Shown one piece after another: positions 18,960-47,288 of a stretch of 47,289 nt of DNA. Position 1 is the first letter of the stretch; the number at the start of each line of letters is the position of its first letter. The stretch is from a virus: positions 1 through 47,289 of the IMG/VR virus record IMGVR_UViG_3300019889_000022; one strand, 5' to 3'. The notes under the pieces are model-generated. The model saw nothing but the letters and a program-made list of their open reading frames with translations. It made no database searches and was not told where the DNA came from. The position numbers were made by a program, and so were the translations under genes.

Positions 18960-19138
18960 ATCACACCTGCCAGCAGCCGCATCACGTAGTCGAGGACCTG
19001 CGCCAGGACCAGCACGAACGGGGTCAGCACCACCGCGGCGACCACAATGAACTTGAGGCCACAGCCCTTGTTCGTCGCCGAGCTGGGCTTCTGGTGGTAG
19101 TGGGGGTTGCCGGCGCCGCCGTAGTTCGGGCGGGTCAT
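18956..19138 (-). CDS. Single-pass membrane protein, 60 residues
   Basis: A polar, Gly/His-containing N-terminus (MTRPNYGGAGNPHYHQK) leads to one hydrophobic segment (FIVVAAVVLTPFVLVLAQVL). The start overlaps the excisionase-like stop (ATGA). A host-membrane early protein of unknown role. Confidence 0.6.
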   Translation of the reverse strand: MTRPNYGGAGNPHYHQKPSSATNKGCGLKFIVVAAVVLTPFVLVLAQVLDYVMRLLAGVM

Positions 19139-19329
19139 GATGCACGCTCATCAGACAGGCCGTCGGCGTATTCCTTGACCGACGAGAAGTAGATCTTCCG
19201 GCTGCTGCCGATGTACTTGCCCTTGAGCTCTCCGGAGTTGAGCAGCTCATAGACCTTCCACGTCGAGACTGACAGCTGGTGCGCGGCCTCTTTCACGGCG
19301 ATGAAGATCGGGTCGAGGTCGGCCATCAC
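19135..19329 (-). CDS. Excisionase-like HTH protein
   Basis: A 64-residue protein with a clear HTH_17 domain: FIAVKEAAHQLSVSTWKVYE, then LNSGELKGKYIGSSRKIYFS as wing. This is the layout of phage excisionases and MerR-like recombination directionality factors. Its position between the antirepressor and the early operon, near the integrase, makes it the better Xis candidate of the two HTH_17 proteins here. Start could also be the second Met. Confidence 0.7.
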   Translation of the reverse strand: MMADLDPIFIAVKEAAHQLSVSTWKVYELLNSGELKGKYIGSSRKIYFSSVKEYADGLSDERAS

Positions 19330-20571: not shown

Positions 20572-20628
20572 ACCGTATGCCATATGGAATGAACCACGCA
20601 AGAGGACACGGCTAGTTCATGTGAACTA
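20572..20628. promoter_or_regulatory. Divergent immunity control region
   Basis: Leftward: -35 TTGCGT (20601-20596) and -10 TACGGT (20577-20572) with 18-base spacing, predicting a start at about 20565, on the ATG itself. TAGTTCA-TG-TGAACTA (20613-20628) is a 7-bp perfect dyad between the divergent genes. It overlaps TGAACT (20622-20627), a possible -35 for the rightward repressor with TAGAAC (20647-20652) as -10. Probable operator. Confidence 0.5.
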
Positions 20629-20677
20629 TCTGTCATCATTCTGGACTAGAACCCGCGATTCGTGGAATGCTTCCCAC

Positions 20678-20962
20678 ATGCCAACTGGACACAAGCCAGC
20701 ACCCAGCGCAGTTACGCGGGAGATCGCCGCGATCTTTGACCGCGAGCTGCAGCGCGCCGGGCGCACGCAATCGGACCTAGCCGAAGCGGTCGGCGTGTCC
20801 CAATCTCAGCTGTCGAAGATCTTCCGCGGGCACAAGGCGATCGACATGGACCTGCTCTACCTGATCTCAGCCGATCTCCGGCTCAGGGCGCTGGACGTCA
20901 TCGCCGAGGCGCAGGAGGTAACCGCAACGCGGGAGCGACTTCGCAGGAGTCAGAAGGCCTGA
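20678..20962 (+). CDS. XRE-family repressor, CI-like immunity candidate
   Basis: A 94-residue protein starting MPTGHKPAPSAVTREIAAIF. RAGRTQSDLAEAVGVSQSQL and SKIFRGHKAIDMDLLYLISA form a standard XRE helix-turn-helix. It has no protease or dimerisation domain, so it resembles the short repressors of many actinophages. It is the only rightward gene between the leftward early operon and the integrase and faces the Cro-like gene across a dyad. ATG at 20678 chosen because the HTH begins soon after; the longer frame lacks support. Confidence 0.7.
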   Translation: MPTGHKPAPSAVTREIAAIFDRELQRAGRTQSDLAEAVGVSQSQLSKIFRGHKAIDMDLLYLISADLRLRALDVIAEAQEVTATRERLRRSQKA

Positions 20963-21274: not shown

Positions 21275-21526
21275 TTATGGCGTCGCATCCCAGCCCTCGG
21301 GCGGCACGAAAGTGCCCCTCCCGTGGTAGGTCACAATGGCGCCTTCCTCGCGGAGGATCTTCAAAGCACGGCGGACAGAGCCTTGGGAAACCCCGAACTC
21401 CTGCTCCATGGCTCTTTCGCCGGGGAGTCTTTGCCCCGGTCGGTACTCGTTGCGTGCGATTCGATCCCGGATAATGGCCGCCACCTGCAGATACACCTGC
21501 GCTGAATCCCACTCGTCGATGCTCAT
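21275..21526 (-). CDS. GntR-type winged-helix regulator without effector domain
   Basis: An 83-residue protein. VYLQVAAIIRDRIARNEYRP, GQRLPGERAMEQEFGVSQGS and VRRALKILREEGAIVTYHGR followed by GTFVP is a full GntR winged-helix DNA-binding domain, including the LPxER and GRGTFV signatures. It has only a few residues beyond, so no ligand-binding or dimer domain. It lies 88 bases after the integrase stop, with a set of palindromes in that gap. It may act as a recombination or lysogeny regulator. Confidence 0.8.
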   Translation of the reverse strand: MSIDEWDSAQVYLQVAAIIRDRIARNEYRPGQRLPGERAMEQEFGVSQGSVRRALKILREEGAIVTYHGRGTFVPPEGWDATP

Positions 21527-21613: not shown

Positions 21614-22885
21614 CTAGCTCTCGATCGCCAGCGCCACCCCGTACCCGGCTAGGGCTTCGCGCGCAAAGCGCATATCCATCTCGGTGTACTTCTGGGTCAT
21701 CAGCACAGTGCTGTGCCCGAGGATCATCTGGATGACGTCGATGGAATAGCCGAGCGCGCGGAGCAGGGTGGCGGTGGTGTGCCTCGCCGCGTGCAGCTTC
21801 ACGTGCTCGATGTCGGACGCTCCGAGCCAGTCGACCCACTCGTCGTAGTCGTCCTCGTGGGCGATGGGTTCGCCGTCGCGGCGGCACCACACGAGGTCAT
21901 GGTCGGACACGTATCCGGCACGCTCCTTCTCGACCTGCTCCAGGCGCAACTGCAGCGCGAGCACCAGCGGCGGCGGCATCGGTATCAGGTGGCTCGAGTT
22001 CTTCGGCCTGGTGAGGCACAGGCGCCCGTACAGCTGCTTGCACTCGTAGCCGGGCGGGATGTCGAGTTCGGCGGAGGGGCAGTCGGCTTTGCGTTTCCGC
22101 CCGCACGTCGGCGGCTCATCCTCCTTGTGGCAACCGTGCATGTAGTCCAGCCGCGAGAGCTGCCAGGCGATGTCGACCATCTGGTTGTCCCGGTCGATCA
22201 TCGACCACCGGAGTCCGATGGTTTCGCCCTGTCGGGTGCCGATCAGGAAGCCGGCCAGCCAGCGCGATGCGGTTCGCGGGTAACGTTCCGCTGTGCCCAT
22301 GAACCGGCGCACTTCCTCCATCGACAGCGCCACCGGGTCCGCTTCGGCGATCCGCGGTGAGTCGACGAGCATGGCGACGTTGCGGCCGAGGCCGCGTTCT
22401 GCCATGGCGGAGTTGAGGGCGGTGACGAGGGTCCGGTGTGCGCTGCTCGCGGTGGACTGAGACAGATCGAGGCGGACGAACCTTGCGTGCAGCTCTCGGA
22501 CGTGGGCCGTGGTGATGCGCTCAAGCCTGTGCTTCCCGATCTCGGGGATGATGTGGTTCTCGGCGTTGGTTCGATATCGCTTGTACGTCTCGGGGTCGAC
22601 GTTCGGCTTGACGATGGTCTTGAGCCAGTACCGCAACCACCGGTCGAGTGTGAGGTCCGCGGTCTCGAGGTCGCCGTGCTCGGCGAGCTTCTTCTTGGCG
22701 TCGTTGAGCTTCTTCTGGGCGCCCTTCATCGTCTTGCTGGAGACGGTCTTGCGGCGGCGGCGTTTGCCGGTGCCAGCGGTGGGAAGCGTGATAGCCCCGA
22801 CCCATAGCCCGTCGCTGGCTCGCTTGTAGAGCCCGCCTTCGCCGCGCTGCCGGCGGGGCTTCTTGGGATCTTGATCGTCAGGCAC
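21614..22885 (-). CDS. int: Tyrosine-family integrase
   Basis: A 423-residue protein with the full catalytic set: R218 (GTRQGE), H365 and R368 (HAARH), H391 (LGHS) and the nucleophile Y400 (KYTE). The N-terminus is basic and Gly-rich (arm-binding), then a SAM-like core-binding domain (LTLDRWLRYWLKTIVKPNVD). An insert with GCHKEDEPPTCGRKRKADC and a later C could bind zinc. It integrates the phage at a bacterial att site, probably a tRNA gene, judging from the adjacent attP. Arm-type sites begin 28 bases before its start, so the integrase may also control its own expression. Confidence 0.95.
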   Translation of the reverse strand: MPDDQDPKKPRRQRGEGGLYKRASDGLWVGAITLPTAGTGKRRRRKTVSSKTMKGAQKKLNDAKKKLAEHGDLETADLTLDRWLRYWLKTIVKPNVDPETYKRYRTNAENHIIPEIGKHRLERITTAHVRELHARFVRLDLSQSTASSAHRTLVTALNSAMAERGLGRNVAMLVDSPRIAEADPVALSMEEVRRFMGTAERYPRTASRWLAGFLIGTRQGETIGLRWSMIDRDNQMVDIAWQLSRLDYMHGCHKEDEPPTCGRKRKADCPSAELDIPPGYECKQLYGRLCLTRPKNSSHLIPMPPPLVLALQLRLEQVEKERAGYVSDHDLVWCRRDGEPIAHEDDYDEWVDWLGASDIEHVKLHAARHTTATLLRALGYSIDVIQMILGHSTVLMTQKYTEMDMRFAREALAGYGVALAIES

Positions 22886-22912
22886 TTGCCACCTCGCTAA
22901 GATCGTGCTCTA

Positions 22913-23120
22913 CTGTAGCCAACACTGTAGCCTACGGTGCTAATGAGGACTGTATGGACCTTGAGAGGGAAAGCCTGTGACCAGCAGTTATTTGGTCCTG
23001 ACCTCCACTCCAGAGTACCGTACCGAAGACGCGGTAGGTCGTCGGTTCGAATCCGACTTCGGGCTCTCTACCTGCTCGGATAGGTTTCATGATGGCGAGA
23101 CTGTAGCCATCACTGTAGCC
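22913..23120. other. attP: attP: tRNA-3'-like core flanked by arm-type repeats
   Basis: Four exact copies of ACTGTAGCC occur as two pairs: 22913-22921 and 22925-22933, then 23100-23108 and 23112-23120. Each pair has a 12-bp pitch. Between them lies a tRNA 3' half: GCGGTAGGTC (about 23031-23040), T-stem GTCGG (23041-23045), loop TTCGAAT, T-stem CCGAC (23053-23057), then an acceptor-like TTCGGGCTC. Paired direct repeats on both sides of a core are the arm sites of a tyrosine integrase. The bacterial tRNA isotype could not be settled. Confidence 0.75.
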
Positions 23121-23183
23121 CACCGGCAAATTGCGTCTCTTCTCAGCGGCACCGAGGCAACCCGCCTCGACCGAAGGACGCTC

Positions 23184-23687
23184 ATGCCGACACGCACCCT
23201 CCGCCGCACAGTCACCGCCCTCCTCGCCGCCCTCGGCCTTCTCGGCGGGGGTGCGGTAGCCGGCGCGGTCGTCATCGACGACTTCATGCGCCCGGCCGAC
23301 GTCGACAATCCCATCGCACACCGCGGTTGCGTCATCCGGTTCGACGAGCGGACCCCCGCCGGCTTCACCGTTCCGCGGATCCACGCCAACGCCACTCACA
23401 TGTGCGTCGGGGTCGATGACGTGTACGCCGAGTTCACTGGAGACTCCGCCACTGCCGGGGATCTGATCATCGTCACGGACGACCCGGGCGCGATCGTCGA
23501 CATTCAGATCACCGAGGACGAGACGATGACCGCGCGTGGGATCTCGTGTGGCCCGTCGGGTGGTGGCGCCGAGACGCGGATCCGCTGCTACGACCGCGAC
23601 GGCAACAAGGTGAAGGCGTACTCGGCGGCGATGTACGGGGCCCTCGCGAACCTGTGGGTCGGCATGAACATCTGGGTGGGCGAGTGA
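23184..23687 (+). CDS. Secreted or membrane-anchored protein, possible lysogenic conversion gene
   Basis: A 167-residue protein with a signal sequence (MPTRTLRRTVTALLAALGLL, then GGGAVAGAVV). The mature part is beta-rich (CVIRFDERTPAGFTVPRIHA) with a C-terminal strand set and Cys residues near HMCVG, SCG and RCY. GAAGGA lies before the ATG. First gene rightward of attP, so its location at the edge of the prophage would favour expression during lysogeny. The longer frame from 22977 would run through attP and is rejected. Confidence 0.55.
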   Translation: MPTRTLRRTVTALLAALGLLGGGAVAGAVVIDDFMRPADVDNPIAHRGCVIRFDERTPAGFTVPRIHANATHMCVGVDDVYAEFTGDSATAGDLIIVTDDPGAIVDIQITEDETMTARGISCGPSGGGAETRIRCYDRDGNKVKAYSAAMYGALANLWVGMNIWVGE

Positions 23688-27946: not shown

Positions 27947-28636
27947 TCAGGTGAGGCTGCAGCTGTACGTCGGCGCAGCGGGGTTGAACGGTTCGTCACG
28001 GTCGCAGCGGTATGACAGGCCCAGGTAGGTGAAAGTCCAGGAGGTGGGCGGCTGACCGTCTTGGCCGTCGGTCCCGTCCTGCCCGTCGTTGCCGGGCTCT
28101 CCCGCTGGTCCTGGCGGGCCAGCGGTACCGGCCGGACCCTGCGGACCCGACTCGCCTTGTGGTCCAGGCGGACCCGCTGCCCCCGCCGGTCCGCCTTCCC
28201 CGTTGCTCCCGGGGTCGCCGTCAGATCCAGGCTCGCCAGCAGATCCAGGCGGGCCGCCTGGGCCGCGCTCGCCGGTCGCTCCACGTTCGCCGATGTCACC
28301 GGGAATGCCCTGAGGTCCGGGCGGGCCTGGATCCCCTTCGAACCCCCGCGGCCCCGGCGGACCCTGGGATCCACGCGGACCTTCCTGGACATCAACGGCA
28401 GGGAGATCGTCGACCGATTCCTCCGGCGGCGGCGCCACCGGCTCCTCGCCGCCGCTTTGAACCTGGTCGCGTAGCTCTCGAACATCCTCAGCCAGAACCT
28501 CGATGGCCTGCTGCCGCTGCGCCGAGCCCTCCGCTGTGGAGAACGCCAGGACAATGAAGAACACCACCACGCCGAACAGGGCAACCACCACCACCACGAG
28601 AGCAGCAGTCGGCAGGGAGCGAATCAGCCGCCTCAT
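27947..28636 (-). CDS. Membrane-anchored collagen-like protein
   Basis: A 229-residue protein. One N-terminal membrane segment ([20 protein letters not shown], then [12 protein letters not shown]), a coiled coil ([20 protein letters not shown]) and a Pro/Glu linker lead to about 37 uninterrupted Gly-X-Y triplets. A 35-residue C-terminal domain ([20 protein letters not shown]) with two Cys ends it. Collagen triplets form trimeric rods; the membrane anchor suggests an envelope rather than virion location. It overlaps the upstream membrane gene by one base. Confidence 0.75.
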
Positions 28637-28953
28637 CACGGGCTGATCCTGACCAGACTCAGCACCACCGACAGCAGCGCCACCAGAACCGCCACGCCAA
28701 TAGAAGCCCAGACGCCGCGTTTGAACTTGTCCTGCTCGTCCATGCGAGCCTCGACCTTGCCGACCTCTTTCGCCCGTGCGGCTTTCTCGTCTGCGATGTC
28801 GGACTCGATGCCGACGAACCGCCGATCGGTGCCTGCCTGGTAGAGGGCGAACATGCCGGTAGTCAGCATGTTGGTGTTCATCGACGCCAGCTGGTCGCGA
28901 ATCTCGCGCATCATCCGCATCAGCTCCCACGGCGTCGGCTCCGTTTCAGGCAC
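28636..28953 (-). CDS. Membrane-anchored coiled-coil protein, XhlA/holin-like
   Basis: A 105-residue protein. A helical N-terminal 75 residues ([20 protein letters not shown], then [20 protein letters not shown]) ends in one membrane segment ([20 protein letters not shown]) and a short tail. Charge and layout resemble XhlA-type lysis accessory proteins. It lies directly downstream of the amidase. Could be a holin partner. Confidence 0.65.
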
Positions 28954-47276: not shown

Positions 47277-47288
47277 GGTCGGGAGCCC
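47277..47288. repeat. Right copy of 12-bp terminal direct repeat
   Basis: GGTCGGGAGCCC, identical to bases 1-12, followed by a single A at the end of the window. Joined ends would give two copies in tandem at a 13-base pitch. Confidence 0.5.

Follow-up and report, generated by a model that had tools for sequence, protein, structure and literature searches.

A predicted attP with paired arm-type repeats around a tRNA-Thr(TGT) core in a temperate actinobacterial tailed phage

Paired arm-type sites placed around tRNA or tmRNA cores are known from mycobacteriophages of clusters K, J and L (PMC3203893, PMC3706429, PMC10865867), and putative arm sites have been reported for the attP of subcluster K4 and cluster L phages (PMC10865867). 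For CrimD and Pixie (cluster K1/K3), N-terminal integrase residues were proposed to determine the arm sequence, in a comparison of close relatives only (PMC3203893). The MabA1 phages are unusual in that they rebuild the 5′ end of a tRNA-Met (attB-5; PMC8092301). Autoregulation is common among integrase genes whose promoter and att region overlap, as for IntS of KplE1 (PMC2951348).

Here, we analyzed a viral record (the window) that comprises 47,289 bp and has a G+C content of 67%. The closest integrases among sequenced phages are those of Boilgate and Fionnbharth (subcluster K4), which are 39% identical to that of the window. These two phages and those of cluster L share with the window two direct pairs of arm sites with a 12-bp pitch (13 bp in some) that are approximately 175-200 bp apart, a tRNA core between the pairs, and a proximal pair immediately upstream of int; they differ in their arms (ACTGTACCC/GGTGTACCC) and in their cores, which lie in tRNA-Lys(TTT). 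Arm-type pairs also flank a tRNA or tmRNA core in CrimD and Pixie, but the right-hand pair of CrimD is inverted and its core is a tmRNA. Reading the arms as four-site arrangements gave TGTACCCAA for Boilgate, GTGTACCCA for Shedlock, GGTATCAAC for DuncansLeg, CTATACCAA for Kingsolomon, AGGTGTCAA for JoeDirt, TGACAACCA for Anatole, TAGTCACGC for pCGR1 and GTGGACTCA for Ekdilam. Since the layout is common to known actinophages with other arm sequences, the putative attP of the window joins a known kind rather than forming a new one. Like the integrase of the window, that of phage lambda has an arm-binding N-domain and core-binding and catalytic domains, whereas the lambda attB is not a tRNA and the number and spacing of the arms differ. 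Integration of lambda requires IHF.

Arm repeats and integrase of the window

Exact copies of ACTGTAGCC were found on the plus strand at 22912-22920, 22924-22932, 23100-23108 and 23112-23120, and a search of the whole 47,289-bp window found no fifth. The copies form an int-proximal pair, ACTGTAGCC-AAC-ACTGTAGCC (22912-22932, plus strand), whose counterpart occupies the same place beside approximately 14 divergent integrases, and an int-distal pair, ACTGTAGCC-ATC-ACTGTAGCC (23100-23120, plus strand). The pitch inside each pair is 12 bp, the pair starts are 188 bp apart, and the two pairs can be extended to a 24-bp repeat with 92% identity. The initial annotation of this DNA had started the first copy at 22913, which is one base late, and had called the pairs symmetrical. 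This description is inaccurate, as all four repeats are direct rather than mirrored and the 36-bp core is separated from the left pair by 98 bp and from the right pair by 33 bp. The tRNA T-arm that had been read between the pairs (GTCGG-TTCGAAT-CCGAC) is present within the core at 23041-23057 on the plus strand.

Next to the proximal pair, a tyrosine integrase of 423 aa is encoded on the minus strand (21614-22885), with a GTG start preceded by GAGGTGG. It was identified by matches to Pfam Phage_integrase (1.5e-17), Phage_int_SAM_3 (9e-12) and phrog_1 (5e-57), by a lambda Int profile that aligned from the N-terminus (residue 5), and by an AF2 model for which Foldseek returned lambda Int (1z1b/5j0n). 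The predicted arm-binding domain is N-terminal (approximately residues 17-70), and in the AF2 model it consists of strands b1 (20-21), b2 (28-34) and b3 (44-50) and helix a1 (53-70). Across 15 relatives, the catalytic residues R218, K295, H365 and R368 are invariant, and H391 and Y400 are nearly so. With these catalytic residues and the N-terminal three-stranded sheet plus helix, the integrase is of the lambda type. Single-protein scans of genome contigs and viral contigs returned no relatives of the integrase, and a DNA search against phages gave no match.

The proximal pair lies 26 bp upstream of the int GTG start at 22885, instead of the 28 bases first given for the left pair, and its location suggests that the integrase may repress int by binding there. 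No sigma-70-like promoter was found in 22800-23300. A candidate gene for an excisionase, or recombination directionality factor, is found on the minus strand at 19135-19329; its MerR-like HTH_17 product (Pfam HTH_17, 2.8e-6; phrog_66) also scored above the cut-off of the NCBIfam model TIGR01764 'excise', and these profile matches make a role in excision or directionality likely. Between int and the repressor region, a small GntR-family DNA-binding protein (Pfam 5e-20) is encoded on the minus strand at 21275-21526.

The core, its tRNA gene and the host

The common core of the predicted attP (23031-23066, plus strand) was delimited by pattern scan, ARAGORN and exact-match extension. Its 36 nt are identical to the tRNA-Thr(TGT) 3′ part; they begin directly behind the anticodon loop and run one base beyond the discriminator position. 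Since the core spans this region, integration would restore the tRNA, and for this reason tRNA-dependent lysogeny is not indicated for the window phage. When 84,980 species genomes were scanned, the 28-nt T-arm/acceptor sequence was found at 17 loci, 16 of which contain a complete tRNA-Thr(TGT) according to ARAGORN. Thirteen of these loci are under genus names of the Jiangellales (Jiangella, Phytoactinopolyspora and Haloactinopolyspora), and the remaining four are from MAGs. Identity over the full 36 nt was seen for most tRNA-Thr(TGT) genes of Jiangella and Phytoactinopolyspora and for one MAG, which bears out the expectation that the core would be carried by the 3′ ends of tRNA genes.

In Haloactinopolyspora alba (G005 contig 10, 154068-163222), two integrase-family frames lie between direct copies of the core that are 9.1 kb apart. 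This stretch probably represents a small element that integrated at the tRNA-Thr(TGT) end, and the core copies show that this end is an insertion site in use. A second core copy is also present in Jiangella muralis, 2.35 kb away.

A profile search showed that the window terminase is approximately 76-77% identical to the terminase of a prophage in Jiangella asiatica 5K138, while the best terminase match among 50,697 phage records reached 59%. The J. asiatica prophage (L284/L285, contig 62, approximately 42.1-69.0 kb) is syntenic with the structural half of the window, with 68% identity for the portal and 45-76% for most other matched structural genes. Its attachment end differs, with a Leu/Ser-like tRNA fragment alongside and without paired ACTGTAGCC. 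Syntenic structural genes next to another attachment end suggest that the integration module has been exchanged between related phages. The core matches and the terminase together give good support, short of proof, for a host in the order Jiangellales.

It is also conceivable, though unlikely, that the attP is a true one whose host is an actinobacterium outside the Jiangellales with the same tRNA-Thr(TGT) end or with a better-matching anticodon loop. Of the 17 loci at which the 28-nt core was found, four belong to MAGs that are not Jiangellales by name, but the full 36-nt match was confined in our scan to Jiangellales and one MAG. Similarly, 22 Jiangellales genomes yielded no prophage with the ACTGTAGCC arm pair, but the nearest terminase found is that of J. 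asiatica. The anticodon loop is the third point that favors another host. Identity between phage and host tRNA ends exactly at the 3′ edge of this loop, whereas the cores of several relatives contain the loop. Since the window core is without it, a crossover in the loop would have no homology here against Jiangella, and thus the crossover lies in another part of the 36 bp, unless the phage has a different host.

Two other features of the window were noted. The 12-mer GGTCGGGAGCCC occurs at 1-12 and at 47277-47288, one base from the record end; it could represent either a cohesive end or a brief overlap left by assembly, and the J. asiatica prophage is continuous across the joint. In addition, a frame on the minus strand at 27947-28930 contains collagen-like repeats of the Gly-Pro-Pro type and perhaps encodes a tail-fibre protein.

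The same arm sequence beside other integrases

Among 2.9 million contigs scanned, the strict pattern ACTGTAGCCNNCACTGTAGCC was found in only three others, and in all three it lies where a tyrosine integrase gene begins. A looser pattern, CTGTAGCCNNNNCTGTAGCC, i.e. CTGTAGCC-N4-CTGTAGCC, was compared with the reversed pattern as a control. Counting matches alone was rejected as evidence, since the reversed control was equally frequent or more so, which leaves only the position of the arm beside integrases as informative. An arm pair was placed -200 to +600 bp upstream of a same-family integrase at 15 of 118 loci (window included) compared to 0 of 120 for the control (Fisher p ~2e-5), and 14 of these 15 loci have the window's orientation of the pair to the integrase. 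Thus, the paired repeats beside the integrases of relatives, which the initial annotation had anticipated, were found. A scan for the AGCT arm gave no integrase loci among the matches listed.

The ACTGTAGCC pairs recur beside approximately 14 divergent tyrosine integrases, mostly around other tRNA 3′ halves. A second pair is present 188-248 bp farther out in the window and in L003, L034, L061, L076, L092, L093, L094, L104 and L127. Between the pairs, a tRNA T-arm with a 3′ acceptor was found in all of these except L076 and L094, which have no recognisable tRNA T-arm there despite the arm layout. The anticodon loops between the pairs were read as Phe, Thr, CAT (Met/Ile type) and others, and these varied tRNA cores between the same arm pairs indicate that the tRNA target changes while the arm stays.

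Virion and prophage forms can be compared in the MabA1 phages of Mycobacterium abscessus. In the virion genome of phiGD23-1, ACTGTAGCC pairs 198 bp apart flank a 42-bp core, whereas the prophage prophiGD57-2 has the 42 bp at both ends and one ACTGTAGCC pair per end; the integrase-side end of prophiGD57-2 is identical to phiGD23-1 over 389 bp. The pairs are together in attP and divided to attL and attR, which is the behavior expected of arm sites. The arm sequence of these phages is identical to that of the window and has the same orientation to int, but outside the N-domain their integrase is only approximately 36% identical to the window integrase. The MabA1 attP (L500 1150-1700, L501 end) contains the 5′ half of tRNA-Met, opposite the usual 3′ half that forms the window core, and arm sequence and orientation to int are unchanged despite this.

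The original reading of the repeats as arm sites of an attP is supported by the core that matches a tRNA, by the pairs that recur beside integrases and by their split in prophiGD57-2. We are highly confident in the prediction that the element functions as the attP of a temperate actinobacterial tailed phage, with ACTGTAGCC arms and a tRNA-Thr(TGT) core. Operators of a regulator (e.g. GntR-like or Cro/CI-like) that would govern int as well as the rightward gene, next to a coincidental tRNA-like core, are a very improbable explanation of the repeats. Regulator genes are indeed nearby (GntR, 21275-21526; HTH_3, 20621-20962) and the pairs occupy an intergenic control region, but integrases of unrelated phages have the sequence beside them as well, it tracks the integrase N-domain rather than a shared regulator, and in prophages the pairs are tens of kilobases apart at opposite ends.

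The arrangement was also scored as two pairs of 9-mers with a pitch of 11-13 bp and 130-320 bp between pairs (maximum 54). The window arrangement scored 54 of 54, whereas 1000 shuffles of the 550-bp region that preserved dinucleotides scored no higher than 40 and the best unrelated tile across the whole window scored 41; together with the exact-match scan, the shuffles confirm the four exact copies, two on each side of the core at a 12-bp pitch, that had been noticed at the outset. Although the repeats are short, chance or an assembly duplication has a negligible probability, as none of the 1000 shuffles reached the score and the same layout occurs in many independent records.

Functioning as an attP, the element would be used by the integrase (21614-22885, minus strand), which probably binds the four ACTGTAGCC sites via its N-terminal three-stranded-sheet domain and would bind the tRNA-derived core via the domains for core binding and catalysis, which would allow a single integrase to bridge arm and core. 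Strand exchange would occur somewhere within 23031-23066 with the identical 36 bp of the 3′ end of the host tRNA-Thr(TGT). After insertion of the phage, the tRNA would be whole again at the junction with the host 5′ half, and each prophage end would hold one of the arm pairs; excision is likely aided by the HTH_17 protein (19135-19329).

Residue 31 of the integrase and the choice of arm

The N-domain was more similar than the remainder of the protein only among integrases that share the ACTGTAGC arm (0.403 and 0.364, respectively); between these integrases and others, it was the less similar part (0.299 and 0.324; permutation p 0.0002), in a comparison set that still contained three distant integrases that were set aside later. 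From the tree and the argument below, the distant L327, L350, L351 and L352, which are probable chance matches to ACCC, were excluded. Residue 31 (window numbering) is not Arg in 14 of 14 integrases with AGCC/AGCT arms, whereas Arg31 is found in all actinophage-type integrases with TGTACCC arms (Boilgate, Hammy, Shedlock, L317, L321, L333, L360 and L369). When a tree was built from the protein without the N-domain, L360 and L369 were nested next to AGCC integrases, and a minimum of three separate changes was required to explain TGTACCC. In a held-out set, prophiGD17-2 (AGCC) has Ser31, and Arg31 is found in Deb65 (CACCC) and in Fionnbharth (ACCC), which is closely related to L321. A companion rule of Tyr20/Phe20 was dropped as a strict rule, since the held-out prophiGD17-2, which has ACTGTAGCC arms, carries Phe20. 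In the AF2 model, residue 31 is in strand 2, and A31 and Y20 of the window integrase align with R27 and Y17 of lambda.

With slightly less than even confidence, we propose that arm recognition is set largely by residue 31, a small residue going with ACTGTA-G-CC and Arg with TGTA-C-CC, through at least three independent switches and with tRNA targets changing separately. This candidate rule is a correlation across sequences, with few independent switches and with groups that were compared after the residues had been seen.

No Jiangella phage study was found by a full-text search of the literature collection used here. An attP, a likely attB and a likely host order can now be assigned to an otherwise unplaced phage, and the attP and integrase could serve as the starting point for a Jiangella integration vector. 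The layout rule, i.e. two direct pairs with a 12-bp pitch that are approximately 175-250 bp apart with the proximal pair at the int start, allows the arm sequences of a family of actinophage integrases to be read from the DNA alone, and the arm choice of the integrase N-domain becomes directly testable through a one-residue swap.
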